Assembly (NCBI GenBank): GCA_016875405.1
Contig: VGRJ01000030.1
Coordinates: 1 to 42,547 of the forward strand
Length of the DNA: 42,547 nt
DNA from: Deltaproteobacteria bacterium
GTDB lineage: Bacteria > Myxococcota_A > Polyangia > Polyangiales > Polyangiaceae
Direction: 5' to 3'
Position numbers and translations under genes: made by a program. The first letter of the stretch is position 1. Each line of letters starts with the position of its first letter. Below are positions 3,001-34,452 of this stretch, piece after piece. The notes beneath the pieces were generated by a model. It had not been told where the DNA came from and ran no database searches. It saw only the letters and a list, made by a program, of their open reading frames with translations.

Positions 3001-3404
3001 GCGTTTCGAAGCGCGAGGCCGAGGGTCGTCTGGAAGGTCTTCAGCTCCTCGACAGGGACGTCGTAGCCGATCGCGATCTCATCAATGCCGAAGCGCGCGA
3101 GGATCTCCGCGACCTCGAGGGCCGATTCGTAGACTTGGCGCCCCGCGCGAAACAGGCGTCGCCCGATGTAGACCGATTTGTCCGCGAAGTAGATGCGCGG
3201 GTTTGCGCCGGTCCGTCGACCGAAGTCCATGATCGCCTGCTGTGCTGCGAGGAGCTGCTGGCGCTGTGCTTCGTTCTCGCTCGTATACAGGGTTGCCTGC
3301 TTCACCAGGCGATGCAGCTCGACCATGACGGCCGAGGCGAGGACGTCTTCGTCGGCTGCCTGGGCCCTCGGACGGGCAGCTTGTTGCTGGCTTGCGGTGG
3401 TCAC
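1..3404 (-). CDS. Large degenerate HD-GYP / DUF4388 signalling protein (partial, 3' end outside window)
   Basis: The minus-strand frame stays open from a GTG at 3404 to the window edge, giving at least 1134 residues. The GTG overlaps the TGA of the upstream kinase gene (GTGA), so the two are translationally coupled. Residues about 10-120 form a helical and beta module. Residues about 200-430 resemble an HD-GYP domain: the C-terminal signature (YPTGTTVEL, then NGQVAMV) is present, but the metal-binding HD is YD (LLYDVGL) and no GYP motif is seen, so c-di-GMP phosphodiesterase activity is unlikely. Two Pro/Ala-rich linkers follow. Residues about 775-900 look like a DUF4388 (PATAN-type) domain (TPLTNLLVYLLDQQLSGTVVL), typical of deltaproteobacterial signalling proteins. 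The last visible 130 residues are Pro/Ala-rich. It is probably a scaffold or sensor working with the kinase; that role is inferred. Confidence 0.85.
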   Translation of the reverse strand, partial: MTTASQQQAARPRAQAADEDVLASAVMVELHRLVKQATLYTSENEAQRQQLLAAQQAIMDFGRRTGANPRIYFADKSVYIGRRLFRAGRQVYESALEVAEILARFGIDEIAIGYDVPVEELKTFQTTLGLALRNAGPPPQSVRYARLRLRKGRPLKARRMNEDLSPQEVLVRSYCLAVVAVRRFLESIQRGKTDSINAVQRVVEQLVDVTHEMTSKQSPAFLAGVVLYNVRGESAGRAVNAAMLTLAMTRQLSDQLATLSRVAMASLLYDVGLPRVAGTGPEGEDRVGAMLPRIGIEQERELPAATAVVVTSLNGCSESGMMHTALVYEALSLNMRDNARAAYAGVHSVSLEARIVATARRFTELLADPDEERTAEQAMMHLLREGRDEADKTTARMLMAALGMYPTGTTVELSNGQVAMVLQTPNDPRRFGFPLVQPVLDASGGTLDGAPPLDLDGAAEQGVYISRVMALGDGSTEPRGGRRATATGAVAAAVATAQAAGPLNQGARRITVPVTPDAPDIGDSATDSRPPGFIALEQEALAQADTPQPTPSPQLTPRPIALGRIELTPPPQRSPVAAPVPQFSPTPRFTESTSNQRRQEFADALSTKPDDSDALAIDLPPDDGLLGAFGAGLVAQQSDDGSTIVFDPSLGPGPGAMLTPVPARGVTVATKLEEPFEVALDAALDAAFEPGKSLSDLAMTNELYSPTRDDRALDLATTGEISIDDGPPAIPPPAGLPRGMLGASDVSESDAYPDAAAERRIAERAQPAFEWFEERAEGLAPTAEGLLRKTPLTNLLVYLLDQQLSGTVVLTSAAMDAIHAFTVEEGRPVNVRTFGDVAPLDKVLLTLGVIEADGLLASHAAISRSGELHGAYLIRTGMVDEGMIEIALKMQAQQKLEHLLALPEDTTYMFFKDHDLLAGYGGREPIGVDPLALITIGVRHRKRDPLIDQTLARLGQLALTIHPLAAIGRLGFDHREAAVVDALLEEPRSLQALAAAGVTTVEVLKRAVYVLTITRSLQLGTNAKPPVGYVDAAPPSVADLAPPVFATMAPPASFDPSRLPSPASVPQPQAPLAAAPATPSFAPPEPMPQPESGASIATAATRIITSHVGLAATPAPSEVEEHAEDSLDDSAGTV

Positions 3405-6325
3405 GAGTCGAGTTCCTTGCTCGTGTAGGACTTGCCGAGGCGCGTCATCAGGGTCTCGGCGGCCTTGCCGGCGACGCGCCTGAGATCGGAGGTGTTCCAG
3501 GGGCGACGGCGAGCGGCGTTCTCGAGGACGGCGAGCGGGTTCTGACTGTCGGCGTGCTTACCGAGCGATTCGGCTGCGGCTGCGCGAGTCTTGTCGAGTA
3601 GCGCGTCCGACATGAGGCCATGTTGGTCGAGCACCTGGATCAGCATCGCCTCCGCGCGTGGCGGATTCAGCGTGTAGAGCGTCTCGAAGAGCTGCCTTTG
3701 TTCGTCGACCGGACGCTTACGGAAGGCGTCGAAGGCTTCGATTGCACGCACGAGGCCGGGCCCGGCCGAGCGGACGTGATGGTGGCGCATCGTCGTGAGC
3801 GCGGCCATGCGGAGCTTCGGGTCGTTCGCCTCGATCCACTCGACGAGGAGCTTCGCGAGCTGCTCGTCGGAGGGGGTCATCAGCGCCGCGGCCTCGCAGC
3901 GAAGCGCCGGGTTCGAGCTATTCATGAGCGGCTTGAGTAGCGCGAGCGCCTCGACGTTTCGGGTGGCGGTGACGAGGGCAAGGCAGCGCTGCGCGAGGGC
4001 GGGCTTCAGCTGGTCGAGTCGGGCGATGACGTACGCCTCGCGCCCAGCGACGTGCCGCTCGATGTACGCCATGACGAGCTCGAGCGACTCTCCCTCCTCG
4101 AGCTGGTTGATCGCGGAGAGCGCGTCGTCGAACCAGGTCCCGTCGAGGGTGCCGAGGATGGTCCGAAGGCCGTTGAAGATCGTCTCGCGCGACGCCGCCG
4201 GGAGCGACTCGACGCTTAGAGTGCGAAGCAGCTGTCGAAGGATGGCTGCCGGGAAGATGTTTTTGGCGAGGCCCACGATCGTGAGTTCGCGCGGCATCAG
4301 CGGCGCGCGTCGTCGCTCCTGCATCGAGAGCTTCGCGAGGCTCTCGATGCGCTCTGCGAGCGTGTAGTAGACCTCGAACATTAGATCGTACCGATCGCGC
4401 GTCAGGAATTGGTGGGCAAACTGGGAGACGGGCTCGAGCAGGAGCTTCGTGTCGCCGCGCGCCTCGGCATCGGCGTACGCCTCGACCACGATGTCGAGGT
4501 ACCGACCCTTCCAGGACTCGATGTCGAGCAAGAGCCTCCCCGCGAGCGCCGTCTTCTCGATCGGGCTAAGCTCGAGAGCCGCCGAAGCGGCGACGGCATC
4601 GATGCCGCTCTGATTCGTGGTGACGGCCATCACCGCGACCTCGCGGAGGTCCTCACGTGCCATTGACTCGAGGTGCGCGACCTCGGTGAGGAGCTTCTCC
4701 TCCTCTCCGTCCGCCGCGACCTCCTCGAACATCCTGTAGGTGATGTGGCCGAAGTCAGCCTCCCAGAGTGCGCGCTTGATGTCGGCGTTCACCGGGTCCG
4801 CATTCGGATCCATGAGGAGGATCCGGACGAGCTGGAAGACCTCGTCCTCGCTGACGCCTGGGCCGATCTTCAGCTGCTCGACGCCCGCGGCGCAAAGATT
4901 GTACGGAATGACGTCGCTCGGCGCCCCAGGCTCCCAGACCGCTCGCTCCTCGTCGCTGTTTGGCGCGCGCGCGACGAAGCAGAACGGGTGCACGAGCCAG
5001 GTGAGGCAGTCTGGGTCAAGGCGGAGCGACTCGGTCGCGATGCGATGGAGCGCCCGGACGCGCCCCTTCGACTCGGTATGGTCGAGCGTGTAGGTGCGGA
5101 AGCTCGGGAGCGCGCGCTCGAAGCGGTCGAAGAACCCTTTGATGCGAAGGTGCGGGTCTTCTTCGTCTCCGGCGGCGGTGCGCGTGAGCTTGTCGGCGGG
5201 GGCGAGCTCGACCTGCGTCGCACGGGCTCGGCGGAGTTGCTCTTGGGGCGCGGCGGGCGCGGGTGCTGGAGGCGGAGGAGCGGGCGCGCGTGGTGCCGAA
5301 GAGGGTCCGGGCTCGAACGCTTGGGGTGTTTGAGCCCCCATCGCTGGCGCCGGGGCGCGCTGCGCGGCGGGAGCGGCTTGTGCGGTCGGCGCGCTCGCCA
5401 CTGCTGGCGCTCCAGCGCCGGGGCCGTTGCCGTAGGGGTTGCCCCCGAGGGCTCGCACGACGCGGCGGCACTCGTCGCGCATCTCGTGGGCCGAGGCGAA
5501 GCGATTGCGGCGGTCCCACTGGAGCGACTTGTCGACGATCGCGATCACCTCGAGCGGCAGCTCCGGCGCGATGCGGGCTACCGACGGGGCTGGCTGCGTC
5601 GCGGCGAGGATGAACGCCTCGTTGTCGCTCTTTCCTTGGTGAAGGCGCTGGCCGCTGAGAAGGGCGTAGAGCGTCGCACCCATCGCGAACACGTCCGAGC
5701 GTCCGTCGAGGCTGTCGCTCTTGCCCATCGCCTGTTCGGGCGACATGTACGAAGGGGTTCCGAGCGCGGTGCCTGCGCGCGTCATCTCGCCACCGCCGGC
5801 CTCGCGCAGCTGCGCGACGCCGAAGTCGAGGAGCTTCACCACGCCCTCGTGCGTCACGAAGATGTTCGCGGGCTTCAGGTCGCGGTGGATGATGTTGAGG
5901 TCGTGAAACGGTCCGAGCGTATCGAGCACCGCTTCGGTCACGCGGAGGGCCTCGATCGGCGGGACGATCCGCTTGTGCCGCTTCCAGACCTCCTGGAGCG
6001 TCTCGCCCTCGAGCAGCTCCATGACGAGGAAGGACTCGCCGAGCTCGGTCTCGTCATCGTCGAGGATTGCGACGCGGCCATTGTGGTCGACCTTGTTCGC
6101 GACGTACCCTTCGCGCAGAAAGCGTCCCTTGACGTTCTCGTCTCGCGCGAACTCCGTGTGCAGGACCTTCAAGGCCAGGCGCGAGCCGTTACGGTGGGTG
6201 GCTGCGTACACCGCCGCCATGCCGCCGATCCCTAGGACCTTGTCGAGCCGGTACTTGCCCTTGACCCACTGACCAATGCGCTCGTTGGCCTTTTCCTTCA
6301 TCGAGCGCGAACCGGCGCTCTGCAT
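3401..6325 (-). CDS. Ser/Thr protein kinase with C-terminal HEAT-repeat region
   Basis: This is a cytoplasmic Hanks-type kinase of 974 residues. The kinase domain spans about residues 25-290: Gly-rich loop GIGGMAAVY (32-40), ATP-binding Lys in LALKVL (53), HRDLKPAN (147-154), DFG (167-169) and SPE (195-197). All catalytic residues are present, so it should be active. A Pro/Ala-rich linker (about 300-370) leads to about 600 helical residues with HEAT-like repeats. No membrane segment is visible. I chose ATG 6325 (AGGAC about 14 nt upstream). The frame extends to GTG 6454, but that would overlap the pilS-like gene; GTG 6352 and ATG 6301 are alternatives. It lies downstream of pilC and the pilS-like gene and overlaps the next gene by 4 nt, so it probably signals to or from that DUF4388 protein. 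A link to pili is inferred from position only. Confidence 0.93.
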   Translation of the reverse strand: MQSAGSRSMKEKANERIGQWVKGKYRLDKVLGIGGMAAVYAATHRNGSRLALKVLHTEFARDENVKGRFLREGYVANKVDHNGRVAILDDDETELGESFLVMELLEGETLQEVWKRHKRIVPPIEALRVTEAVLDTLGPFHDLNIIHRDLKPANIFVTHEGVVKLLDFGVAQLREAGGGEMTRAGTALGTPSYMSPEQAMGKSDSLDGRSDVFAMGATLYALLSGQRLHQGKSDNEAFILAATQPAPSVARIAPELPLEVIAIVDKSLQWDRRNRFASAHEMRDECRRVVRALGGNPYGNGPGAGAPAVASAPTAQAAPAAQRAPAPAMGAQTPQAFEPGPSSAPRAPAPPPPAPAPAAPQEQLRRARATQVELAPADKLTRTAAGDEEDPHLRIKGFFDRFERALPSFRTYTLDHTESKGRVRALHRIATESLRLDPDCLTWLVHPFCFVARAPNSDEERAVWEPGAPSDVIPYNLCAAGVEQLKIGPGVSEDEVFQLVRILLMDPNADPVNADIKRALWEADFGHITYRMFEEVAADGEEEKLLTEVAHLESMAREDLREVAVMAVTTNQSGIDAVAASAALELSPIEKTALAGRLLLDIESWKGRYLDIVVEAYADAEARGDTKLLLEPVSQFAHQFLTRDRYDLMFEVYYTLAERIESLAKLSMQERRRAPLMPRELTIVGLAKNIFPAAILRQLLRTLSVESLPAASRETIFNGLRTILGTLDGTWFDDALSAINQLEEGESLELVMAYIERHVAGREAYVIARLDQLKPALAQRCLALVTATRNVEALALLKPLMNSSNPALRCEAAALMTPSDEQLAKLLVEWIEANDPKLRMAALTTMRHHHVRSAGPGLVRAIEAFDAFRKRPVDEQRQLFETLYTLNPPRAEAMLIQVLDQHGLMSDALLDKTRAAAAESLGKHADSQNPLAVLENAARRRPWNTSDLRRVAGKAAETLMTRLGKSYTSKELDS

Positions 6326-6363
6326 CGAATGGGCTGAGTCCTGCGTCGTCACAAGTGCACCCG

Positions 6364-6374
6364 GGTTGACAACC
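6364..6374. promoter_or_regulatory. Small palindrome upstream of the kinase gene
   Basis: GGTTG-A-CAACC is a perfect 5+1+5 inverted repeat between the pilS-like stop and the kinase start, next to a TATAAG stretch on the minus strand (about 6377-6382). It could be an operator or part of an internal promoter for the kinase. No well-spaced -35 box was found, so this is only a candidate. Confidence 0.2.
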
Positions 6375-6393
6375 TTATACCGAAGTTCGCCAG

Positions 6394-8571
6394 TCAGCGC
6401 CGCTTTCGGCGCTGCGTATTCGACTTGGTGCTGCCGTCGCCGAGGCCTTCGCACTGGCTCGCGCGAAGAACGACGTGCACACCTCGGTTCGAGGGGACCG
6501 CGCGGTTCCAGGCATCGCCTGACTCTGCGCTCCCGACGAAAAAGTCCAGGTGGCGCCCCTTCACCTTCGAGCCGCGGTCTTCGGCGATGAAGCAGCCGTC
6601 GTGTGGCTTTCCTTCGAGGTCGCGAAGCCCGTTCATTTCGGGGACGTAGAGCACCGTACCCAGGGGGATCTCAGAGGGGTCGACCGCCACGGTTCGGAGC
6701 GGAGTGATCGGCCTCCCGTTGGCTCCACGCCCCCAGGGGAACGCGGCGCGGTCGAGCAGCTCGTAGCAGATCTTGTGACCGGTTCTCGGGCACTCCGCCG
6801 CGCATTCGCAGCCACGCTTCGCGAAGCTCACCGTCTCACCACTCGCGAGTCGGCCGCTGCCCTGGACGCACAGCTTGTCGTGAAAATCCTGGCTCACCGT
6901 CCGGAGCGGCTGGCAACTCCCGGCGAAGAGTGCGCGCGTCGGTCCAGTCTCCGGGTACGTGGGCTCTTCAGGAAAGAAGTAGTACGTATTGCGAAATAGC
7001 TCAGTCGATCTCGCGCCCGCTCCGCCGACCGTCACCGGGATGGGCGCGAGCGGGTCCGGCGCAGCGGGGGGCGTCGTCGCCGGGGCCGGCTCTGGGCGAA
7101 CCGCGACGCTTGCCTGTCGCGTCGCCGTCGCGGACCAGCCGTCATCGTCCACCACGTCTTCGCTCGGAGCGAGCGTCGGACGCACGTAGTCGCGGCCGGC
7201 GCAGCCCGCTGCAAGCAACAGCAACGACGCGGCGACAGCGACCTCGCCGACCTTGCCGGCCGACGAGGGAACATCTCCCTCCTCATGCACGACGCGTCCT
7301 TCGGGGACCGTCACCGTGAACTGCGCGCCGCCGTCGGTCGCCGTGGAGGCCTCGATGATGAAGTCGTGGCCGTCTAGGATCTGCTTCACGACCGCGAGCC
7401 CGATGCCGACGCCGTGGCTGCGCGTCGTGTAAAACGCTTCGAAGAGCCGCTCTCGATGAGTCTCGTCGATGCCGGGGCCGTGGTCGCGAACGACGAGCTC
7501 GACGCTTCGATCGGCGCGCCGGTTCAACGCCACCTTTACCTCACCCCCAGCAGGACTCACCTGCAGTGCGTTGCGAACCAGATTCCAGAGCACCTGGTGC
7601 ATCTGCCCTCGGTCGGCCTCGATTTGAAGCGACGATGGGCCGTCGTAGCGAACGGCGACGCCCTCTCCGAGGCCTGAGCTCCGCGAGAGCTCGACGACGC
7701 CTGCCACGACGTCCGCGAGATCGACGATTTGTCGCTCGGGGGTGCGCGGCCGACTCAAGTCGACCATGTCGGTGACCAGCTGGTTCAAGCGGGCCGTCTC
7801 CTGCTCGATGATCCGGCAGAGCTGTCGCTCCTCGTCCGCGAGCCCTTCGCCGGTCCGCAGCAGCTCGATGGACCCGCGAATCGACCCGAGGGGATTGCGG
7901 ATCTCGTGGGCGAAGCCCGCGGCGAGTCGGCCGAGCGAAGCGAGCCGCTCGGCTTCGAGCGCGCGACGGTTCGCATCTTCGAGCTTCCCGCCGAAGAAGC
8001 GGAGGCGTTCCGCAAGGTACGCCGCAAGGAGCGCGACCACGAGGGTCGCGAGCACCGTGCTGAACGCCGGATACACCATGTCTCCCGAGCTCACGAGGTA
8101 CGCGGTCGCCGACTGATCGCTCGGCGGCGCGAGCCCGCCCGTCGCAAACGCGTAGCAGAGCCCGAGGTAGAGCGCCGAGCCCGCGGATGCGGCGGAAATC
8201 GCCCCGGACGTGCCGAGGAGGATCGCCCCCGAGACGCTGGTGAGACCGTAGAGTGAGGTCGAGCCGCTCGTGACGCCGCCGGAGATGTAGACGATGGCGG
8301 TCCAGGTCAGCTGGTCGATGGCGAGCTGTGCGTGAGCGACGGGGCGATGCCAGCGCTCCGCGCGAAGCGGGAGGGCGAACAGCGCGGTGGTGATGAAGGC
8401 AAGCGACGCCGTCGCGACGGCCACCTGGCTCGAGAAGCCACTCAGCTCGGGCAGGTAGTAGAGCTCGATGACGAGTAGGAAGACCCCGAGGACCGCGAGT
8501 CGCACGAAGCTGAGCGCGACGAGGCGCCGCCCGAGCGGAGAGTCGACGCCGACGCGGAACGAGAGATTCAC
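6394..8571 (-). CDS. pilS: PilS-like sensor histidine kinase fused in frame to a 3D-domain lipoprotein-like region
   Basis: GTG start 2 nt after pilC; 725 residues. About six hydrophobic segments lie in residues 18-190. A HisKA/HATPase_c kinase follows: phospho-acceptor His222 in AHEIRNPLG, N box LWNLVRNALQ (328-337), DHGPG (363-367), and GVGIGLA (387-393). Order and topology match PilS of the PilS/PilR pilus regulators, and pilC-pilS adjacency is known in myxobacteria; no pilR or pilA is in the window. A normal kinase would end near residue 425. Here the frame continues into a hydrophobic stretch with a lipobox (LLLAAGC, Cys457), a Pro-rich spacer and a Cys-rich 3D domain (about 620-690; AEDRG and HLDFF Asp residues) of the MltA/RpfB type, expected in the periplasm. 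A good Shine-Dalgarno (GAAGGA) sits 6 nt before an in-frame GTG at 7290, so the 3D part may also be made separately as about 298 residues. Confidence 0.85.
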   Translation of the reverse strand: MNLSFRVGVDSPLGRRLVALSFVRLAVLGVFLLVIELYYLPELSGFSSQVAVATASLAFITTALFALPLRAERWHRPVAHAQLAIDQLTWTAIVYISGGVTSGSTSLYGLTSVSGAILLGTSGAISAASAGSALYLGLCYAFATGGLAPPSDQSATAYLVSSGDMVYPAFSTVLATLVVALLAAYLAERLRFFGGKLEDANRRALEAERLASLGRLAAGFAHEIRNPLGSIRGSIELLRTGEGLADEERQLCRIIEQETARLNQLVTDMVDLSRPRTPERQIVDLADVVAGVVELSRSSGLGEGVAVRYDGPSSLQIEADRGQMHQVLWNLVRNALQVSPAGGEVKVALNRRADRSVELVVRDHGPGIDETHRERLFEAFYTTRSHGVGIGLAVVKQILDGHDFIIEASTATDGGAQFTVTVPEGRVVHEEGDVPSSAGKVGEVAVAASLLLLAAGCAGRDYVRPTLAPSEDVVDDDGWSATATRQASVAVRPEPAPATTPPAAPDPLAPIPVTVGGAGARSTELFRNTYYFFPEEPTYPETGPTRALFAGSCQPLRTVSQDFHDKLCVQGSGRLASGETVSFAKRGCECAAECPRTGHKICYELLDRAAFPWGRGANGRPITPLRTVAVDPSEIPLGTVLYVPEMNGLRDLEGKPHDGCFIAEDRGSKVKGRHLDFFVGSAESGDAWNRAVPSNRGVHVVLRASQCEGLGDGSTKSNTQRRKRR
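6396..6413 (-). other. GC-rich hairpin at the 3' end of the pilS-like gene
   Basis: AGCGCCG and CGGCGCT form a perfect 7-bp stem around a 4-nt loop, and the stem runs into the TGA of the histidine kinase gene. There is no U-run after it on the minus strand, so it is more likely an mRNA-processing or stability structure, or a partial terminator, than a classic intrinsic terminator. It could set different expression levels for pilC-pilS and the downstream kinase genes. Confidence 0.4.
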
Positions 8572-8573
8572 GC

Positions 8574-9776
8574 TTACTCGGTCTTGATATTGCCCGCGAG
8601 CGAGAAGATCGGCAGGTACATCGAGACGAGGACGACGCCGACGATCCCGCCGATCATCACCATCATGATCGGCTCGAGCATCGAGGTGAGCGACGCGACG
8701 GCGACGTCGGTCTCGTCCTCGTAGAAGTCGGCGATCTTCGTGAGCATCTGGTCGAGCGCGCCGGTCTGCTCACCGACCGAGATCATCTGCACGACCATGC
8801 CGGGGAACATGTTGAGCTCCGCGAGCGGGTCGGCGAGGTTGCGCCCCTCGGAGATCTTGCTCCGCGCGAACATCAGGCCTTCCTCGACGACCACGTTGCC
8901 AGCGCTCTTCGCGACAATCTCGACCGCATCGAGGATCGGCACGCCTGACGACAGGAGCGTGCCGAGCGTGCGCGAGAAGCGCGCCACCGTGATCTTCTTC
9001 ATCGTCGGCCCGAGGATCGGGAGCGTCAGGATCATCTTGTGGACGAAGCGCTTGCCCGCGGGGCGCCGGTAGAACTGCGACGCACCGAACACCGAGCCGC
9101 CCGCGCCGAGGATCACGAGTGGCAGGTAGCTCACGAAGCCGTTCGAGATCCCGATGACCATCTTGGTGATGCCGGGGAGGGCGTCCTTCGCGCCGAACTC
9201 CGCGAACATCGCCTCGAACGCTGGGATGACCCAGGTGAGGAGAACGAACATCACGATGACCATGATGCCGATGACGGTGATCGGGTACGACAGCGCGCCC
9301 TTCACCTGCCGCTTCAGCTTGACGTTCTTCTCGATGTAGGTGGCGAGGCGGTTCAGGATCGTGTCGAGGATGCCGCCGACCTCGCCCGCGTGGACAAGGT
9401 TGATGAAGAGGTCGTCGAAGATCTTCGGGTGACGCTTCAGCGCGTCGCTGAAGGTCGCACCCTGCTCGACGGTCTGCTTGATGTCGATGAGCGCCGCTTT
9501 GAGGACCGGGTTCTCTTCCTGATTGCTCAGGATGTCGAGGCACTGCACGAGCGGCAGGCCGGCGTCGATCATCGTCGCGAACTGGCGGACAAACTTGACG
9601 AGCTCCTGCGCCTGGACGCCGGAGCCGAACGAGAGCGCGAGCTTCTTCGAGATCTTTTGGGGGTTGAGCTGCTGGGCACGAAGCCGCTTGTCGACGGCTG
9701 CGGCGTTGTCCGCGACCATCACGCCCTTGATAATCTCGCCCGAAGCCGCGCGGGCTTGCCAAGCAAACTGCGCCAT
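8574..9776 (-). CDS. pilC: Type IV pilus assembly inner-membrane platform protein PilC
   Basis: 400 residues, the usual size for PilC/GspF proteins. It has the two tandem T2SF/GspF cytoplasmic helical domains (about residues 68-190 and 270-395), each followed by membrane segments: one or two hydrophobic stretches near 170-225 and a C-terminal segment near 370-390. The N-terminus (FAWQARAASGEIIKG) is typical of PilC. In the pilus machine it sits in the inner membrane and couples the PilB/PilT ATPases to pilin polymerisation. It is the first gene of the minus-strand unit; its stop is 2 nt before the histidine kinase start. The 48-bp gap to the divergent hydrolase gene leaves little room, so the promoters probably overlap. 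pilB and pilT are not in the window. Start ATG 9776 fits the family N-terminus although no strong Shine-Dalgarno is visible. Confidence 0.96.
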   Translation of the reverse strand: MAQFAWQARAASGEIIKGVMVADNAAAVDKRLRAQQLNPQKISKKLALSFGSGVQAQELVKFVRQFATMIDAGLPLVQCLDILSNQEENPVLKAALIDIKQTVEQGATFSDALKRHPKIFDDLFINLVHAGEVGGILDTILNRLATYIEKNVKLKRQVKGALSYPITVIGIMVIVMFVLLTWVIPAFEAMFAEFGAKDALPGITKMVIGISNGFVSYLPLVILGAGGSVFGASQFYRRPAGKRFVHKMILTLPILGPTMKKITVARFSRTLGTLLSSGVPILDAVEIVAKSAGNVVVEEGLMFARSKISEGRNLADPLAELNMFPGMVVQMISVGEQTGALDQMLTKIADFYEDETDVAVASLTSMLEPIMMVMIGGIVGVVLVSMYLPIFSLAGNIKTE

Positions 9777-22990: not shown

Positions 22991-24808
22991 TCACTTCGGC
23001 GTCGGTGGGACGATGACTTCGTTGATCGGCTGCACGCTCATCCCCGCCGGATATCCGTAGCTCACGTACGGATCCCACCCCCAAACGGTGAGGCCGAAGG
23101 GAACGCTGCTCGACGCGACGTGCGCGCCGTTGTTGCAGCCGCCGTTCGGCGCGCCGGCGGTGACGAGGTCGACCCGCGTAAACTCGAAGTTGCCCGCAGG
23201 ATCGATCGGCTGCCACCCCGTGAGGACGCCGGCGCAGTCAAGCGTCACGTCGACGAAGCCGTCCTTGCCCTTCTTTCGAGTGAACACGAGGTTCGTGTTC
23301 CCGTACGTCGGGTCGGTGAGGAAGAGGTAGTCGGGCAACCACTGCGCGGGCGGGATGACGTTCACGTAGTCGGGGTCGCCGTCGCCATTGAAGTTGTTCG
23401 GCACCGCCTGTCCGCCGCTCATGTGGCTCGATAGATAGAACGGGTGGTCGGCGTCCTGGCTCCGCACCACGAAGGGCGCGTCCGAGTTGAACGTGACGAC
23501 TTGACCGTTGCCAATGTTGGCAGGTGCGCCCGGCGGCGTCACTGGTTCGTACGCGAGGCTCGTCCCGTCGACCGCGCCCACGATCGTGAACGGGATCGCC
23601 TCGCCGCCACCGCCACGATTTCGATAGCGCACGCCGACGTACTCGTTGCCCAGCGCCTTCACGGGCGCGAGCTGTTGGTGACCCGAGTCGCACGCGGGCA
23701 CGCCGAGCGGGATGTTCATGCACCCAGTGCCGCCCCAGACGCCGATGGGCTTGTCGCTCTGGATGGTGCTGCCCGCGAGCCGATTCGCTTGCATGAACTG
23801 CAGCATCTCGCCCTTCTGCAGGTCGTAGGTCTTCGGCTGGTTCTGGCCCGTGCCGCTCACGCCATTGCCGGGTTGAATCGGCTTGGTCGGGTTGATGGTG
23901 ACCTTCGTGCCGTTCTCGGCGCCGACGATTTGAAGGTGCGGCGCGCCGCCGAATGGCACAAGGAACGGCGTGGTCTCGAAGGCGTCGGCCGCGACGTAGT
24001 TCGAGTCCCACGCGGGCGTCGGGATGAGCAGCGTTGCGCTCGAGACGAAGCTCTCCTTTCCGCCGTAGGGGTAGATGTCGTACGCGACGATCGGAGCGCT
24101 CGTCGCGATGCGGAACGCCTTGCCGCGACCGGTCCCTTCGACCTGGAAGGGCGCGTTGAAGCCCGCCGTGGTCCCCGCCGGGCAGTCGACGAAGTAGACG
24201 TCGCCCGAGGGCGAGCGCGCGAGGAACACGATCGCAATCTGTCCGGGCGGGAGCTGGCCATTTGGTAGCGGCTGGTAGCTGATGGCGTTGCCGCTCCCGA
24301 CCGGCGTGCGGGTGATGCTCGCGGCGTCGAGCGCCTGATCGCCGTAGAAGGCGTTGATCGTGATGGGCGACGTCCACGTGTTCGCGACGAGGGCGGCGAA
24401 GCAGCTCCCGCGTGTCTCGGTCTGCGGTCCGGGCATCACGCTGTAGAACTCGCACCCGAGGGTGCTCTTGTTGGCCTGCGCGGCCTCGCACGGGCTCGTG
24501 CACACGCCGCCGGGCGCGCAGCCCTGATCGGGCGGGCACTCCTTGATCACGTTACCGTCGCAGTCGGTCACCGAGTGAAGGTTGGCGGAGCACTTCACGC
24601 AGTCCGAGCCTCCCGCGCCGTTCGCCCCGACGGACAGCAGATCGCCACCCGCGCCGGAGGCCGCGCCCGAGTTGGCTCCCGCGCCTGCGGACGAGGTGAG
24701 CGTCGCCGATCTCGATGCGCTGCAAGCCGATGCGAGCCCAGCGGCGGCGGTCAGGGTGGCGATGACGGTGAGCGCGCGCGTGTCGCGGAGGAAAGCTTGA
24801 AGCATCAT
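22991..24808 (-). CDS. Lipoprotein with IgGFc-binding-type N-terminal domain
   Basis: 605 residues. The N-terminal signal ends in LASAC (Cys29), suggesting a lipoprotein, followed by a Ser/Gly/Ala-rich spacer and a Cys-rich segment (CVKCSANLHSVTDCDGN, CPPDQGC). From about residue 105 to the end it resembles the IgGFc_binding family: GCEFYSVMPGPQ, QIAIVFLARS, PIVAYDIYPYGG, IVGAENGTKVTI, LQKGEMLQFM, and PIGVWGGTGCMNIP. In bacteria this family is found on surface and secreted proteins; immunoglobulin binding need not be its role. ATG 24808 is preceded by AAAGG. The gene converges on bioD (6-bp gap) and lies 61 bp downstream of another lipoprotein gene. Confidence 0.87.
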   Translation of the reverse strand: MMLQAFLRDTRALTVIATLTAAAGLASACSASRSATLTSSAGAGANSGAASGAGGDLLSVGANGAGGSDCVKCSANLHSVTDCDGNVIKECPPDQGCAPGGVCTSPCEAAQANKSTLGCEFYSVMPGPQTETRGSCFAALVANTWTSPITINAFYGDQALDAASITRTPVGSGNAISYQPLPNGQLPPGQIAIVFLARSPSGDVYFVDCPAGTTAGFNAPFQVEGTGRGKAFRIATSAPIVAYDIYPYGGKESFVSSATLLIPTPAWDSNYVAADAFETTPFLVPFGGAPHLQIVGAENGTKVTINPTKPIQPGNGVSGTGQNQPKTYDLQKGEMLQFMQANRLAGSTIQSDKPIGVWGGTGCMNIPLGVPACDSGHQQLAPVKALGNEYVGVRYRNRGGGGEAIPFTIVGAVDGTSLAYEPVTPPGAPANIGNGQVVTFNSDAPFVVRSQDADHPFYLSSHMSGGQAVPNNFNGDGDPDYVNVIPPAQWLPDYLFLTDPTYGNTNLVFTRKKGKDGFVDVTLDCAGVLTGWQPIDPAGNFEFTRVDLVTAGAPNGGCNNGAHVASSSVPFGLTVWGWDPYVSYGYPAGMSVQPINEVIVPPTPK

Positions 24809-24869
24809 GGCCTTTGAACCTATCAGCAAACGCGCACGTCGTCGTAGACGCGCGGGGTCCGGGCCTCGC

Positions 24870-27162: not shown

Positions 27163-29709
27163 TCAGGGCCGCGGGGTGGACCGTCGACGAAGCCGCACGA
27201 GGGCCGAGGGCATCACGAGCAGCGCGGTCGCGAGGCAGGCGATCTCGCCCGCCGCAGCGGCGACCCCGAAGCTTCGGATCGCCTGGTTGACCGACAGCGT
27301 CAGCGCGATGTAGCCGAGCATGGTGGTGAGCGAGCAGAGGACAACCGCGCCTCCCGTCTCGCGGACGGCGCGGACCATATCCGTCTGCCCATCCTCCTCG
27401 TAGCGCTTCAGCACGTTGACGGCGTAGTCAGAGCCGACGCCCAAGGTGATCGGAAGCGCGATGAAGTTGAGGAAATTGAGCTTCGATGCCTCAAGCGCGA
27501 GGCCCCCCTCGCTCCAGGGCCACCGCGAGCGAGCGATCGCGAGCACGGCCACCGTCCAGAGGAACCCTAAAACCACCGAGCCCACGATCCAGAAGGCACC
27601 TGTACGGCCTCGAAACGCAACCACCACGAGGAGCACGGTCAGCAGCAGCGACGCCAAGATTGCGCGCGGCGCGTCCTCGACGATGGCCTGGATCATGTCC
27701 GCGAAGATCACGCTCCGCCCGCTGCCCTCGACGACCGAGCCGTCCGGCAGCTCGGTTCGACGGAAGCTCGCGGCCCACTCGATGAGGTAGCGCGCGTCCC
27801 AGACGCTCCGCCCCTTCGCGGGCTCGAGGTAGACGAGCTTGCCGCGTGTCCCGTCCGCCTCGGTGAACGGCCGCGCGACCGCGTCGGGGAGGTCGTCGAC
27901 GCCGAGCGTCCGCAAGGTGCGGGTCGGCACGAGGTCATCGAGCTTCTTCCAGTCCTCCTCGCCGATGAAGCCCTTCGCGTGAGCTCGCTCGAGGAGCGCC
28001 CTCGTCGACCGAAGCTTCTCGAGCTTCTGTTCTTGGTCGGCGGGGAGGAGCGAGTACACGGTCACCACGCGCGCGAACGGTGGTGTGGCGGCGCCATCGC
28101 GGCGGCGCTCGAGCTCGGCGGCGAGCGGCTTCACCTGCTCGAGTCGGTCGACGGCGAGGGCGATCCCGTCGAGTCCGAGGCTCGGGAGCAAGCCATTCGC
28201 GAGCCCCATCAAGCGCCGCGCCTCCGACGGTCTGTCCATCGGCGCGTTGTCGACGTTGCGCATGTTGTATTCCATCGGGTCGTTCGCGACGTAGCGCCAC
28301 GCGAGCGCCGCCGACGCGAGCGTCACCCCGAGCCCGACGAGAAGCACCGCGCCCGAGGCTCGCTCGACGAGCCACGCGAAGGGGCGCCCGTAGAGCGCAT
28401 TGCCTCGAGCGGCGAGGCCGCGGTTGGGGTCGATGGGCAAGATGCGCTCGGAGGCGACGAGCAGCGCCGGCATGAGGAGGAACGTCGCGAGCCAGCACAT
28501 CAGCATGCCCGTCCCGCCGATCACTCCGAAGTGCTTGAAGCCTCGGAAGTCCGTGATCGCGAGCGAGCCGTAGGCGGCGGTCGCGGCCGCCGCCGCGGTG
28601 AGCGTGCCCTCCCACGTCCCCTGGTGAGCCTCATGGATGCTCTCGGGGACGGCCTGCGTTCGGCGCGCCTCGAGATAACGCGCCATGTACAGGATGCCGA
28701 AGTTGATGCCGTTGCCGACGACGATGCTGAACGAGAAGCCGGTCGACTGATCGAGGTAGCCGATGGTGAGGTAGGCGAGGCCGAAGGTGAAGCTTGCGCC
28801 CGTCGCGACCGTGAGCCCCATCGCGAGGAGCGTGCGGACGCGGAGGAAGTACAGCAGTACGACCGCGAGCACGAGGCCGACGCCCCACAGCCCGACGTGG
28901 GTCGAGTCGCGGACGATTTGTTGATGGACCTCGGCCGAGGTGAGGAGGTCGCCCGTGAAGCCGACCCGGAGGTTCGGATCGAAGCGCTTCGGCTCGAGCT
29001 TGTCGATCGCCTCCTTCGCGAGCGCCTGCAAGCGCGCGGAGGCCGCGGCGTCGCCCGAGGAGAGAGGCGTGAGCACACGGATCGCGGCCACGTGCTTCGT
29101 CGTGTCGAGGTAATAGCCTCCGGGGTAGCTCGCCGTCGCGGCGTCGAGCTTGCCCTTGTCTTTGCCTGCGCGCTCCTCGATTCGCGCGCGGAGAGAGGCC
29201 TCGTCGAGCGCCGTCGGCGGCTCGTCGTCGTCGTCGAGCAGCGCGCCGCTGCGCTTCGCGACCTCGTACTCGTAGCGCTCCTCGATCTCGCGGTGGGCCT
29301 CGTCGACGAACTCGAGCGGCGCGTAGAGGAGCTTGTGTTCCTCGAAGAACGCCTGGGTCGCTTGCACTCCCGAGTCGACCGAGCCGACGAGCTCCTTCGG
29401 CAGCGCGGCAAGGGCAGGGGACGCCGCGTCGACGAAGCGCTTCAGTCCTTCATCGTCGCTGCCCTCGGCGATCACGACGAAGGTCGAGGTTGAAGGCAAG
29501 CGGCGCTTCACCTCCTCGGCGACGACCACGCTCCGCTTGCCGCTCGGGAGGAGATCCCCGAGGCCCGTGCGGAGGGTGAGGCGCGTCGCGAGGGCGAGCG
29601 AGCAGAGCGCCGCGAGCAGCGTGACGCCGACGACGTGCCACGGGCGCGCGAGCTGGAGCTCGGCGAGCCGCGCGAGCAGCGAAGCGGCTGGGCCCCGCGG
29701 CGTGTTCAT
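27163..29709 (-). CDS. RND superfamily (MMPL / HpnN-like) exporter
   Basis: 848 residues with the RND layout: one N-terminal membrane segment (about 20-38), a large periplasmic loop of about 210 residues, a membrane block (five to six segments), a second loop, and a second membrane block ending near the C-terminus. LGDLLPSGKRSVVVAEEV after the first segment, SIVVGNGINFGILYMARYLE and ITLGVGSDYAVNVLKRYEE are typical of the MMPL/hopanoid-RND (HpnN) group, whose members move lipids or hydrophobic molecules across the inner membrane using the proton gradient. The cargo here is unknown. ATG 29709 is chosen; GTG 29715 would overlap the upstream TGA as GTGA. It is directly coupled to the M13 peptidase gene, with no RND partner (membrane fusion protein) in the window. 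Confidence 0.92.
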   Translation of the reverse strand: MNTPRGPAASLLARLAELQLARPWHVVGVTLLAALCSLALATRLTLRTGLGDLLPSGKRSVVVAEEVKRRLPSTSTFVVIAEGSDDEGLKRFVDAASPALAALPKELVGSVDSGVQATQAFFEEHKLLYAPLEFVDEAHREIEERYEYEVAKRSGALLDDDDEPPTALDEASLRARIEERAGKDKGKLDAATASYPGGYYLDTTKHVAAIRVLTPLSSGDAAASARLQALAKEAIDKLEPKRFDPNLRVGFTGDLLTSAEVHQQIVRDSTHVGLWGVGLVLAVVLLYFLRVRTLLAMGLTVATGASFTFGLAYLTIGYLDQSTGFSFSIVVGNGINFGILYMARYLEARRTQAVPESIHEAHQGTWEGTLTAAAAATAAYGSLAITDFRGFKHFGVIGGTGMLMCWLATFLLMPALLVASERILPIDPNRGLAARGNALYGRPFAWLVERASGAVLLVGLGVTLASAALAWRYVANDPMEYNMRNVDNAPMDRPSEARRLMGLANGLLPSLGLDGIALAVDRLEQVKPLAAELERRRDGAATPPFARVVTVYSLLPADQEQKLEKLRSTRALLERAHAKGFIGEEDWKKLDDLVPTRTLRTLGVDDLPDAVARPFTEADGTRGKLVYLEPAKGRSVWDARYLIEWAASFRRTELPDGSVVEGSGRSVIFADMIQAIVEDAPRAILASLLLTVLLVVVAFRGRTGAFWIVGSVVLGFLWTVAVLAIARSRWPWSEGGLALEASKLNFLNFIALPITLGVGSDYAVNVLKRYEEDGQTDMVRAVRETGGAVVLCSLTTMLGYIALTLSVNQAIRSFGVAAAAGEIACLATALLVMPSALVRLRRRSTPRP

Positions 29710-29711
29710 GG

Positions 29712-31910
29712 TCACCAGACCGTGCAGCTCGTCTTCGGGCGCATCGCCGTGCCTTCGGTGCACTGGAATGCCTCCGCAAAGGCGGGCAGGTTGCGGACCG
29801 ACCCGTTCACGCGCCAGCGCGGGTGCGAGTGCGGATCGGTCGCCGCGCGGAGCTTCGTGAGCTCATCGGTCTGCTTGCTGCACCAGACCTGACCGAGCGA
29901 GAGAAAGAGCTGCTGACGCTCATCGAAGCCCTCGGCGTTCAGCACCTCGCCGGCACCCTCGCGCATCGCCGTGAGCGCCATGTACGCGAGCATGAGCCCC
30001 GCGTTGTCGGCGATGTTCTCGCCGAGCGTGAGCTTGCCGTTCTGCTTGACGCCGGGGAGGACCTCGTAGCCCGCGTACTGCTCGTCGATGCATCCCGCCC
30101 GCTCGTCGAATTGCTTGCGCACGTCGGGCTGCCACCAGCTGCGAAGGTTCCCGTCGCCGTCGTACTGCGAGCCCTGGTCATCGAAGCCGTGGGTGAGCTC
30201 GTGACCGACGACCATGCCGATCGAGCCGAGGTTGACCGCGAGCGACGCCTTGGGCGAGTAGAACGGGGGCTGCAAGATCCCCGCGGGGAACACCATCTGG
30301 TTCTTGTTGGGGTCGTAGTATGCGTTGACCGTCTGCGGCGGCATGTACCACTCGCCGCGATCGACGGGGCGCTCGACCTTGGCGAGTCGACGCTCGAAAT
30401 CGTAGGCCGCCGCGCCGAGCACGTTGCGACCGTACGCCGTACGCTCCACCGCGAACGGATAGTCGAGCCAGCGGTCGGGATAGCCGACGAGGTACTCCAT
30501 CTTGACGAGCTTCGCCTTCGCCTGCGCGCGCGTCGCGTCATCCATCCAGGTGAGCGCGGGGAGCCGTTTGTCGAGCGCGTCTCGGATGGCCTTCAGCATG
30601 CTCCGGACGTCCTCCTTGCTCTCGGGGAGGAAGCGCTTCGCGACGTAGGACTTGCCGAGGAGCTCGCCGAGCGAGGTGTCCACCGAAGCGACGCAGCGCT
30701 TCCAGCGAGGCTTCTGCTCCTTTTGGCCGGTGATCTTTTGCACCAGTCGGAAGCCCTCTTCGTCGAAGGCCTTGGGGAGCGCGTCCGACATGCCGTGCAA
30801 CACGTGCCAGCGGAGGTAGCTCGCGAGCTCCTCGGGGCTCGCGTCGGCGAGGACGGTGTTCAGGCCGTTGAAGAACGCGACGCTCGTGACGTTGATCTTC
30901 GTGAATTTCGTGACGCCCAGCGTCGGGTACTGCGCGCGCTCAGCGAGCGCGTCGAGGTAGGCCTGGTAATCGAAGCGCTTGCTGCGCTCGGAGAGCCCGG
31001 CGCGGTCGATCCGGTTGTACATCCCCTGTGGATCACGGCGCTCGACCCGCGTCTTCGAGATCGAGGCGAGCGCCTTCTCGAGCTTCACGACCTGCTCGGC
31101 CGCGCGCGTCGACTCGTCGGCTCCGAGGCCCGCGAGCCGCAGCATCGCGGCGACGTGCCCTTGGTAGTAAGCGAGGACATCGGCGTACTTTGCGTCGAGG
31201 TAATAGTCGCGATCGGGGAGGCCGAGTCCATCCTGGTCGGCGTGCGCGATCATGGTCGTCGCGTCCTTGTCGTCAGGGCCGCTCGTGATCGAGAAGAGCG
31301 GATGAAGGCCGGCACGGTGCATGTCGGCGATGAGCCTCTCGAGCGTCTCGGCCGCGACCTGCGTCGGAGCCTCCGTCTCCGGTAGCGCCTTGCCCTTCGT
31401 CGATCCTTTGCCCTTCGCCGCGCTCGTGCCGCTGCGTGCACCCGCGCGCTCGACGAGGCGCACGCGGCGCAGCTGCTCGATGCGCGCGAGGAGCGGCTTG
31501 ACGGGTTCGAGTCCGCCGCGCTCGATCGCCGCCTCGTCGACGCACGATGCGTAGTAGTCGCCGAGCTTCCGCTCGTCCGCCGTCGCGCCCGACGCGGCGA
31601 GCCGCTCGAGGATTTCTCTCAAGTCCTCCTCGTTGCGCTTCTGGATCTCGCTGAAGCTCCGCATCCAGCGAGGCTGATCGCCGGGGATCGCGGTGTTCTT
31701 GATCCAGTTGCCGCAGGCAAATTGATAGAAGTCAACGCATGGGTCGGCGCTCCGGTCGAGCGCCTGCGAGTCGAGCCCGATCTCGGCGAGGCTCACTGCC
31801 TTCACGCGCGGCCCGCCCGATTTCGGCGCTTGTGGGGGTGGGGCGCAGGCGACGAGGAGCGCGGTGGCGCCGAGGGCGACCGAGGAGGACGTGCGTCGTA
31901 CGAGGGTCAT
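29712..31910 (-). CDS. M13 family zinc metallopeptidase (neprilysin/PepO type), lipoprotein
   Basis: 732 residues. The signal ends in the lipobox LLVAC (Cys22), followed by a short Pro-rich spacer. The M13 N-terminal domain starts at DPCVDFYQFACGNW, and the catalytic domain has NAYYDPNKNQMVFPAG, the zinc site VGHELTHGFDDQG (HELTH at about 570-574) and the third ligand Glu in GENIADNAG (about 630), all intact. It cleaves short peptides and should act outside the inner membrane. A Gly/Ser/Thr/Lys-rich insert (about 150-170, TSAAKGKGSTKGKA) is unusual for the family. ATG 31910 gives the signal peptide; the frame runs on to 33176 but that part is antisense to aspartate kinase. It is coupled to the RND gene downstream. 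Confidence 0.95.
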   Translation of the reverse strand: MTLVRRTSSSVALGATALLVACAPPPQAPKSGGPRVKAVSLAEIGLDSQALDRSADPCVDFYQFACGNWIKNTAIPGDQPRWMRSFSEIQKRNEEDLREILERLAASGATADERKLGDYYASCVDEAAIERGGLEPVKPLLARIEQLRRVRLVERAGARSGTSAAKGKGSTKGKALPETEAPTQVAAETLERLIADMHRAGLHPLFSITSGPDDKDATTMIAHADQDGLGLPDRDYYLDAKYADVLAYYQGHVAAMLRLAGLGADESTRAAEQVVKLEKALASISKTRVERRDPQGMYNRIDRAGLSERSKRFDYQAYLDALAERAQYPTLGVTKFTKINVTSVAFFNGLNTVLADASPEELASYLRWHVLHGMSDALPKAFDEEGFRLVQKITGQKEQKPRWKRCVASVDTSLGELLGKSYVAKRFLPESKEDVRSMLKAIRDALDKRLPALTWMDDATRAQAKAKLVKMEYLVGYPDRWLDYPFAVERTAYGRNVLGAAAYDFERRLAKVERPVDRGEWYMPPQTVNAYYDPNKNQMVFPAGILQPPFYSPKASLAVNLGSIGMVVGHELTHGFDDQGSQYDGDGNLRSWWQPDVRKQFDERAGCIDEQYAGYEVLPGVKQNGKLTLGENIADNAGLMLAYMALTAMREGAGEVLNAEGFDERQQLFLSLGQVWCSKQTDELTKLRAATDPHSHPRWRVNGSVRNLPAFAEAFQCTEGTAMRPKTSCTVW

Positions 31911-32027
31911 GGCTGGCCGAGGCGTAGCAGAGTCGGCGGCCCCGCGGAACGGTGGGGGGCGTGGGCGGCGCGGCGGCACGAATGACGCTTGCCATGGCCA
32001 TCCGAAGGAGCAAGAACCGCGAGCGCG

Positions 32028-33350
32028 ATGCTGGTGATGAAGTTCGGCGGGAGCTCGGTCGCGAACCGGGCGCAGATCGAGAAGGTGCGTGAGATCGTCC
32101 GGCGCCGGAGCCCGCGTCGGCCGCTCGTCGTCTCCTCGGCGCACAAGGGGATCACCGATGCGCTCGTCGCTGCGGCGCGCGCGGCGGCGGCGGGTCACCA
32201 TGACCCCGACTCGGTGATCGAGCGGCAGCGCGCGATCTCGCGTGAGCTCGGCTGCGACGACGCGCTCCTCGAGCCGCTCTACGCGGAGCTCAGGGATTTG
32301 CTGCGAGGCGTGCACCTCGTGAAGGAGCTCTCGCCACGAAGTCTCGACTACCTGTCGAGCTTCGGCGAGCGGATGAGCGTCCGCTGCATCGCCGACTTCT
32401 TCACGCGCACCGGGCTCCCGGCCGACCCTCACGACGTGTTCGATCTCGGCTTCGTCACCGACTCGCGCTTCGGCGGAGCGCGCCCTCTCCCGGGCTTCTC
32501 GGAGCGCGCGAAGGCCGCGGTCGCGAAGCTGCCGACGGATCGGATCCCGATCGTCACGGGCTTCATTGGCAAGAACGAGCGCGGCGAGATCACGACGGTG
32601 GGGCGCAACGGGAGCGACCTCACGGCGACGCTGCTCGGCGCGGCGCTCGACGCGGAGGAGGTCGAGATCTGGAGCGACACCGACGGCGTCATGACCGCGG
32701 ACCCGCGCCTCGTGCCGAGCGCGCGGAACATCCCGCACATGCGCTTCGACGAGGCCGCCGAGCTCGCCTACTTCGGGAGTCGCGTCCTGCACCCGTCGAC
32801 GCTCTTGCCGGCGATGGCGCAGCGCATCCCCGTGCGCGTACTCAACACGAACCGACCCGAACACCCCGGCACGGTCATCGAGGAGGCGACGCCGCCGAAC
32901 CCGCACCCGGCGACGAGCATCGCGTACACCGAGGACCAGGCGGTCGTGACCATCGCCTCGACGCGCATGTTCGGCGAGGTCGGGTTCCTCGGCGAGGTCT
33001 TCGCTGCCTGCGCCCGCCACGAGGTGGTCGTTGACATGGTCGCGACCTCCGAGGTCAGCATTTCGCTCACGGCCAAGCGCACGCCCGCCCTCGAGCGGAC
33101 GGTGGACGAGCTGCGGGCGCTCGGGGATGTCGAGGTTCGCGACGGGCGCACGGTCCTCGTCGTCGTCGGTCAACACTTGGCGACGCGGCCGGGCGTCGCA
33201 GCCGAGATCCTACGCGCCGTCGGAGACGCCGGCGTCAACGTCGAGATGATCGGCTACGCGGCGGGCTCGATCAACCTGTCGATGGTGGTGGCGGACGCCG
33301 CCGTCGCGAAGGCCGTTGAGACGCTCCACCGAACGCTCTTCGACGGGTGA
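32028..33350 (+). CDS. lysC: Aspartate kinase (monofunctional, with two C-terminal ACT domains)
   Basis: 440 residues. MKFGGSS (residues 4-10) is the ATP/Asp-binding Lys motif; [25 protein letters not shown] and the [13 protein letters not shown] segment (about 210-225) complete the kinase domain. The C-terminal 140 residues contain two ACT modules ([17 protein letters not shown] and [19 protein letters not shown]), so feedback inhibition by lysine or threonine is likely. It phosphorylates aspartate at the entry to Lys/Thr/Met and diaminopimelate synthesis. ATG 32028 gives the family N-terminus; ATG 32037 is also possible, and AAGGAG lies 17 nt before 32028. It stands alone, divergent from the M13 gene, with a strong hairpin after its stop. 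Confidence 0.95.
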
Positions 33351-33597: not shown

Positions 33598-34452
33598 GTG
33601 ACCCATCCGACATTGGTCTCGGTCGAGGACGTGGTCGAGCTCGAGGGGGCGCGCTCTCGCGTCATGCCCTACGTGCGTGGTGCGAACCTCGCGACGCTGC
33701 TCGAGCGGCAGGGGGGAGCCGCGCTGCCTCCCGCGCTGCCTCCCGCGCTGCCTCCCGCGCTGCCTCCCGCGATCGTGACCGCGCTGCTCGTCGAGCTACT
33801 CGCGGCGCTCGGCGCCGTCCATGCGGCGCGTGACCCGTTCGGAGCGCGCCTCGAGCTGGTCCACGGAGACGTCGCCGCCGAGAACGTGATCGTGGGGCCC
33901 GACATGCGCCCGCGGCTCCTGGATTTCGGCCTCGCAAGCTGCCGTCACGCGCGGCGGGCGCGCCGTGGACCTCGAGGTGGCAGGCCGTCGTCGATGGCGT
34001 CGGAGCAGCTGTGTCGCAGGCGCGTCGGTGCTCGCACCGACCTGTTCGCCCTCGGGGTGCTCGGCTGGCGGCTCTACACGGGCGACCTCCCGTTCGAGGG
34101 GACGAGCACCGCCGAGCGCCTCGAGAGCATCCGCCGAGGCCCTGCGAGGACGTCTCGAGCGCACCATGAGGCGGCGCTCGACGTCCTCCGTCAAGCCCTC
34201 GCGTGGTCGGCGTCGGAGCGGCCAGCCTCCGCACACGAGCTCGCGCGCGCCCTCGCTTGCGTCGCGCCGCCGGCGGACTCGTTCTCGCTCGCTGCCTGGG
34301 GCGACGCGCACGTCCGTCGCCGCCTCGCCGCGCCCCGAGTGCTTACCGGATCGAGGTCCTCCGCGCTCGAGACGACGCTCCTCACTCCGCCGCCCGCGTC
34401 GCGGCAGCGTCGTTGCGCGTCGATTCGCTCGAACGAGGTGATGAATGGCTGA
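33598..34452 (+). CDS. N-terminally truncated Ser/Thr protein kinase (probable pseudogene)
   Basis: The readable part begins where a Hanks kinase normally has the alphaC helix. Homology in this frame already starts at about 33538 (LAADASLVDLFLAEAR), before the GTG at 33598. It continues with HPTLVSV, the hinge VMPYVRG, catalytic loop VHGDVAAENVIV, DFG, and DLFALGVLGWRLYTGDLPF. The Gly-rich loop and ATP-binding Lys are absent in every frame between the aspartate kinase stop and 33538. In another frame, about 33500-33530, RRLGSEPAS resembles a kinase N-terminus, suggesting a deletion of the N-lobe region. Activity is very unlikely. Its C-terminus overlaps the FHA gene start by 8 nt (ATGA-type coupling). 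The 12-bp repeat at 33721-33768 lies in it. Confidence 0.7.
   Translation: MTHPTLVSVEDVVELEGARSRVMPYVRGANLATLLERQGGAALPPALPPALPPALPPAIVTALLVELLAALGAVHAARDPFGARLELVHGDVAAENVIVGPDMRPRLLDFGLASCRHARRARRGPRGGRPSSMASEQLCRRRVGARTDLFALGVLGWRLYTGDLPFEGTSTAERLESIRRGPARTSRAHHEAALDVLRQALAWSASERPASAHELARALACVAPPADSFSLAAWGDAHVRRRLAAPRVLTGSRSSALETTLLTPPPASRQRRCASIRSNEVMNG
33721..33768 (+). repeat. Four tandem copies of GCGCTGCCTCCC
   Basis: A 12-bp unit is repeated exactly four times, in frame with the truncated kinase, giving (ALPP)x4. It falls between the hinge and the catalytic loop, where family members usually carry a short loop with LPP. Exact identity of the copies suggests a recent slippage expansion. 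Confidence 0.9.

Follow-up and report, generated by a model that had tools for sequence, protein, structure and literature searches.

A PilS-type histidine kinase continuous in one frame with an MltA-like 3D lipoprotein in relatives of Sorangium

The fused frame and its surroundings

The window, by which we mean the whole stretch of 42,547 nt analysed here, comes from contig VGRJ01000030.1 (assembly GCA_016875405.1) of a member of the Polyangiaceae, and its genome is referred to below as G000. On the reverse strand, 3 bases past the stop of a pilC gene, a GTG at position 8571 opens a single frame that runs to position 6394, a total of 725 codons with zero internal stops. Pfam recognizes four domains in this frame, all above their cut-offs and, from the N- to the C-terminus, in the order 6TM_PilS, HisKA, HATPase_c and 3D (Table 1). 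The first three domains, as well as the position directly behind pilC, are those of PilS, which belongs to the PilS-PilR system of type IV pili, and His222 within the AHEIRNP motif of HisKA is invariant in an alignment of the window's protein with the nine matching fusions described below (10/10). Where the product departs from PilS is its C-terminus, which continues into a lipoprotein. An earlier note, made from the letters of this DNA, had described an unbroken frame from the kinase to the 3D domain, with a hydrophobic stretch and a lipobox cysteine, Cys457, in between. Both observations were borne out, the former by the 725 codons, by the order of the Pfam domains and by the frame being open likewise in nine other assemblies, the latter by a non-polar stretch at residues 444-456 and a Cys that is invariant in 10/10 fused sequences.

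The linkage of the fused kinase to type IV pili consists of the pilC gene directly upstream. Its best NCBIfam model is that of myxobacterial PilC (T4PiliAsmPilCMyx), with 535.6 bits, which is under the model's cut-off of 700, and GspF reaches 353. A PilR-like regulator of the NtrC type was not found among the neighbouring ORFs scanned, the nearest sigma-54 activator ORF lying at 34445-35569. Directly downstream of the fusion is an ORF for a Ser/Thr protein kinase, the true start of which probably lies inside the ORF as listed.

Several other ORFs of the window deserve mention in their own right. At 33598-35569 (+), a protein kinase ORF overlaps by a few bases an ORF that combines FHA with a sigma-54 activator; its Pfam match is without the first ~55 profile positions, such that the start may lie upstream. 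A large protein with an IgGFc_binding domain (PF17517, 308 bits) is encoded at 22991-24829 (-). The region 27163-33176 (-) holds a Peptidase M13 ORF of 1154 aa, in which the Pfam match does not start before residue 479, and behind it an overlapping MMPL ORF.

Table 1. Features of the fused frame and its immediate neighbours in the window
Feature	Positions	Strand	Remarks
Fused frame, PilS-type histidine kinase + MltA-like 3D lipoprotein	6394..8571	-	725 aa; matching fusion in nine more genomes
6TM_PilS membrane domain, residues 15-191	7999..8529	-	Pfam PF25323, 33.6 bits vs cut-off 27
HisKA dimerisation/phosphoacceptor domain, residues 213-276	7744..7935	-	Pfam PF00512
HATPase_c, residues 320-424	7300..7614	-	Pfam PF02518; final domain in stand-alone PilS
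15-residue insert HEEGDVPSSAGKVGE, residues 429-443	7243..7287	-	Only in the window genome; absent in the 9 other fusions (alignment)
In-frame GTG, candidate second start of the earlier note	7288..7290	-	Unsupported: Shine-Dalgarno rank 68/236, acidic n-region
Internal type II signal: non-polar 444-456 + lipobox Cys457	7201..7242	-	Cys invariant 10/10
Ala/Pro-rich linker, variable, residues 458-525	6997..7200	-	Pairwise aa identity
MltA-like lytic transglycosylase domain (predicted), residues 526-711	6439..6996	-	Profile, fold, active-site residues
Pfam 3D, residues 626-684	6520-6696	-	47.8 bits vs cut-off 23.8
pilC, directly upstream of the fusion	8574..9776	-	Pfam T2SSF
Ser/Thr protein kinase ORF, directly downstream	3401..6454	-	Pfam Pkinase

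Distribution and origin of the fusion

Our searches covered 39 relatives, 5 genomes of the genus, 108 of the family and 183 of the order. With a reporting threshold of E 1e-112, at which a weaker fusion could escape, the order-wide protein search found the contiguous in-frame fusion in 10 of the 183 genomes, which represent four genera of one family: four genomes of the window's own genus (G000, which is that of the window, G002, G003 and G004) and six from three other genera (G049, G052, G053, G075, G076 and G077). The branch of bacteria that bears the fusion consists of relatives of Sorangium. The earlier note had held that a fusion would be contradicted if all relatives had a stop codon between kinase and 3D part, but 10/10 sequences of the fusion clade are in frame. 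The fact that the frame is open alike in nine other assemblies, with the same in-frame joint, excludes chance together with a sequencing or assembly error. Each of the ten genomes has one PilS match and is without a second full 3D match. In G002, the fusion ends at a contig edge within the 3D domain, the remainder of which is on a second contig, and the additional 3D match of this genome is a fragment on a contig other than that of the fusion. A scan of named genomes, from which the window's own genome was left out, returned nine fused loci (L094-L102), all in metagenome assemblies, which by contig and position are the nine other fused genomes of the order search; its remaining matches were stand-alone 3D genes of Sorangium, Polyangium, Minicystis and other Myxococcota.

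One genome of the same genus, G001, which is 97% complete, yielded neither the PilS nor the 3D part. In G001 the best hits of the neighbouring pilC and Ser/Thr kinase are remote (37% and 42%), which suggests that the entire block of pilC, pilS, 3D and kinase is missing from it, either by loss or through an assembly gap.

Outside the fusion clade, the two parts are encoded separately. In the 108 genomes of the family, both PilS and 3D are present in 75, PilS alone in 24, 3D alone in 1 and neither in 8. This co-occurrence is above expectation (Fisher p = 2.1e-4, uncorrected for relatedness), though the 24 genomes that have PilS without 3D indicate that there is no general tie between them. The earlier note had suggested looking in related genomes for the 3D part as a separate gene with the same neighbours. 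In the non-fused genomes of the family the stand-alone 3D gene is found far from pilS: among the 65 that have both, they are on different contigs in 59 and on the same contig, at least 0.7 Mb apart, in 6 (G043, G090, G107, G114, G115 and G116). At the level of loci, the 31 with both parts, from 10 genomes, invariably have them on one strand and in one frame, while 77 loci with 3D had no PilS match in the examined flank (at most 1.5 to 4 kb) and 51 loci with PilS had no 3D in theirs. Adjoining but separate PilS and 3D genes were not found among the loci examined.

The trees indicate that the fusion arose once. In a PilS tree with 48 rows, of which 10 are fused, 35 stand-alone and 3 from other families, a branch supported at 100/99 separates the ten fusions from the rest, and they are also grouped in a 3D tree of 50 rows obtained with a quick method (SH-aLRT 91). 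The neighbouring genes indicate how this came about. The pilC gene is upstream in 9/10 fusions, the contig of the tenth beginning about 100 bases before pilS, and the Ser/Thr kinase is downstream in 9/10, with G002 counted via its second contig; in G049, no match to this kinase was present within 1.7 kb downstream. Stand-alone pilC-pilS, in G043, is flanked by a divergent beta-lactamase-like gene on one side and by MlaC and TPR genes on the other. On the 3D side, 4 of 56 stand-alone 3D loci, two of them in Sorangium strains, have a relative of the fusion's Ser/Thr kinase just downstream, aligned over at least 980 residues; at a fifth locus (L104) the alignment extends over 617 residues, and seven further loci gave shorter matches only. 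With these neighbours on both sides, a pilC-pilS block appears to have been joined to a block of 3D and Ser/Thr kinase, a joining that, as read from the genes, cost pilS its stop and the 3D gene its start.

The stand-alone 3D lipoprotein genes with a full-length relative of the fusion's Ser/Thr kinase behind them are located at L132:4001-7506, L160:4001-7543, L110:4001-7425 and L106:4001-8204. An MlaC-like gene and a gene for a TPR protein lie downstream of stand-alone pilC-pilS at both L163 (G114) and L164 (G043).

The 3D domain and the joint

A profile of the 3D part, made from 53 of the 62 available sequences with near-copies excluded, finds in the PDB the MltA of Burkholderia (E 7.8e-6), E. 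coli MltA and YuiC. When residues 501-725 are modelled (mean pLDDT 89.0), the 3D part has the double-psi barrel fold of MltA: the best structural match is 2pi8_A (MltA; Z 12.6, 181 aligned residues, rmsd 4.6), and the top 13 VIA rows, with Z from 8.9 to 12.6, are all members of the MltA family or YuiC. Hence, of the designation "MltA/RpfB type" in the earlier note, MltA (and YuiC) holds by sequence as well as by fold, whereas "RpfB type" is too loose. Expansins, NSF N-domains and diffocin, which come below MltA and YuiC in the VIA and Foldseek rows, were rejected as relatives, as they share the barrel arrangement only.

Three aspartates, Asp631, Asp665 and Asp676, are invariant in 53/53 3D sequences, and the last two align by position with Asp297 and Asp308 of MltA. 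According to PMC4499186, residues 261, 297 and 308 of MltA equal 129, 151 and 162 of YuiC, the last Asp being catalytic, and the equivalent Asp in Bd3285 of Bdellovibrio is described in PMC10127604 as required in vivo. Going by the fold and the active-site residues, the 3D half is probably an active lytic transglycosylase. Its eight Cys are also invariant in 53/53 sequences, which is expected of an exported domain. The fold, the three catalytic Asp and the lipobox are common to the known MltA/3D lipoproteins (E. coli MltA, B. subtilis YuiC, Bdellovibrio Bd3285), from which the 3D part of the fusion differs in that it is shorter than MltA, has the eight invariant Cys, is attached to a kinase and lacks a start of its own. 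The stand-alone 3D lipoprotein of the Polyangiaceae (Sorangium, Polyangium, Minicystis) is 47-60% identical to the window over the domain, but has its own gene, start and signal peptide, and lies far from pilS.

With respect to the joint, stand-alone PilS proteins (29 loci, some sharing a genome) have a polar tail and end 37-75 residues after the GxGIGL motif. The lipobox Cys of the fusions is 52-55 residues past this point in nine of them and 70 residues past it in the window, the longer spacing being that of the private 15-residue insert; measured in this way, the joint falls at the normal C-terminus of PilS. All ten joints contain a run of 12-19 residues that is free of D, E, K, R, H, Q and N and has a mean hydropathy of 2.1-2.6, and all end in Gly or Ser, followed by the invariant Cys. 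A PROSITE-like lipobox pattern fits 8/10 including the window; G075 and G076, which have a Pro near the site, fail it. Around these constant elements the sequence is free to vary, since the identity of the joint is 12% between G077 and G076 and 64 to 94% across the three other pairs, with 64% between G000 and G004. A lipobox-like Cys, by a simple pattern, is also present in 41 of 53 stand-alone 3D loci, and what follows it is often, like in the fusions, a short motif with Trp or Phe at its end. The added membrane passage that the earlier note had proposed between the kinase and the 3D part is supported by these features. At 12 residues, the non-polar stretch of three genomes is short for a helix that spans the membrane, and that of the window genome is directly preceded by an acidic residue. 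An AlphaFold model of the full-length protein (10 sequences) was unusably poor, with a mean pLDDT of 51.8 and values under 50 for residues 431-725; its six helices and a further one at 442-454 are consistent with such a passage, though without evidential weight.

Probable maturation of the fused product and a possible tie to pili

We consider it probable that the fusion is a polyprotein that carries a type II signal inside the chain and is cut by LspA, yielding a kinase in the membrane and a lytic transglycosylase lipoprotein in the periplasm. That ribosomes read through the joint follows from the open frame, and the fact that the signal and the Cys are kept while the remaining joint drifts argues for export, lipidation and a cut by LspA. 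In one pass of the ribosome, a six-TM kinase of the PilS type would thus be made first, then the type II signal, which begins three to five residues past the last strand of the ATPase domain, and then the MltA-like 3D lipoprotein. The internal signal would insert N-in/C-out via Sec, the 3D domain would be exported and disulphide-bonded, Lgt would lipidate Cys457 and LspA would cleave before it. The kinase would keep the signal peptide as a hydrophobic C-terminal membrane tail, perhaps trimmed afterwards, and a lipid-anchored lytic transglycosylase would be released, its synthesis fixed 1:1 with that of the kinase.

Three other readings have to be weighed against a cut polyprotein. The same frame might give rise to two proteins, the fusion and a lipoprotein initiated on its own inside the frame close to the joint, as the earlier note had proposed for the GTG at 7290 on account of a good Shine-Dalgarno sequence. 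The codon exists, but its pairing is ordinary: at -5.4 kcal/mol, it is equalled or bettered by 68 of 236 in-frame ATG, GTG and TTG codons within the kinase parts, against which all energies were ranked and whose best tenth begins at -7.2. Furthermore, a lipoprotein started there would have an acidic n-region (net -3), the 15-residue insert around the codon is specific to the window, and an equivalent start is not common to the ten fusions. More generally, candidate starts up to 42 codons before the Cys vary in position from genome to genome, and none is in the best tenth. An in-frame ATG or GTG would yield a usable basic signal peptide in G004, G075, G076 and G077, where a second start may be in use, the ATG of G077 having the best Shine-Dalgarno energy of these (-7.0, rank 29/236), but the sole candidate in G003 is a GTG ten codons before the Cys, which would leave an uncharged signal of 10 residues and is not workable. 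We therefore regard an internal start as quite improbable, and since the kinase is not followed by a stop, ribosomes on it must continue regardless of whether one is used. The lipoprotein signal starts at residue 444 of the fused frame and not at the N-terminus of the primary product; with no internal start supported, it is an "internal" signal and not that of an ordinary lipoprotein gene.

An uncut product would be a sensor kinase with seven TM segments, in which the attached periplasmic 3D domain reads or cuts peptidoglycan and passes a signal through the membrane on to the ATPase domain. Periplasmic sensor domains are a frequent feature of histidine kinases, the linker of about 70 residues after the Cys is long enough to reach the wall, and in a frame without a stop the kinase is inseparable from the 3D part during translation. 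However, such a protein would not need the Cys, which is invariant in 10/10 sequences amid drift, and we know of no signalling layout in which a spanning segment comes right behind the ATPase domain, opposite the usual position of the sensor. We thus think an uncut kinase unlikely. The bifunctional wall-cutting kinase of the earlier note is accordingly upheld with regard to the fusion and a probable wall-cutting domain, but not with regard to a stable bifunctional form, for which the invariant lipobox makes a cut polyprotein the likelier state. Finally, the stop of the kinase might have been lost by chance, with the C-terminal part a non-functional, degenerating passenger, which could account for the poor conservation of the linker (33-38% aa identity in three fused pairs, although 88% in the close pair G053/G052). 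As a general reading this is refuted by the three catalytic Asp that are kept, by the persistence of the fusion across four genera and by purifying selection on both parts, with dN/dS in pairs of fused genomes of 0.05, 0.10, 0.33 and 0.22 for the 3D part (four pairs) and of 0.16-0.34 for the kinase part, and hardly any credence is left for it.

If the fusion is a cut polyprotein, the kinase would be held at the membrane on both sides of its ATPase domain until Lgt and LspA act. It is conceivable, if doubtful, that lipoprotein export and maturation thereby switch the kinase, which would allow it to sense envelope export or inhibitors of LspA such as myxovirescin, and would tie pilus regulation to the placement of a wall enzyme.

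There is a precedent for part of this arrangement. FbcH of Bradyrhizobium is a polyprotein of cytochrome b and c1 that is cut by signal peptidase I. It likewise joins a polytopic membrane protein to an exported protein via an internal signal peptide, but relies on signal peptidase I and not on a lipobox, and it yields respiratory subunits instead of a sensor kinase plus a wall enzyme. Titles and abstract openings of the open-access literature held no report of a kinase-3D fusion, and the open-access literature searched held none of a polyprotein in bacteria that matures through signal peptidase II. While each half comes from a known family, what is new, as far as our searches of this literature show, is the order of the parts and the lipobox that lies internally, behind a histidine kinase.

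A functional tie to the pilus, as inferred here, could be that pili must cross the wall. AgmT, a lytic transglycosylase of another family, links the gliding machinery of Myxococcus to the wall and serves motility, according to PMC11444678. Cleavage at the lipobox would make the product of the fusion a polyprotein, in a bacterium, that matures through signal peptidase II. The fusion may be taken as nature's own indication that a kinase of the PilS type and a lipoprotein predicted to cut peptidoglycan share one process.
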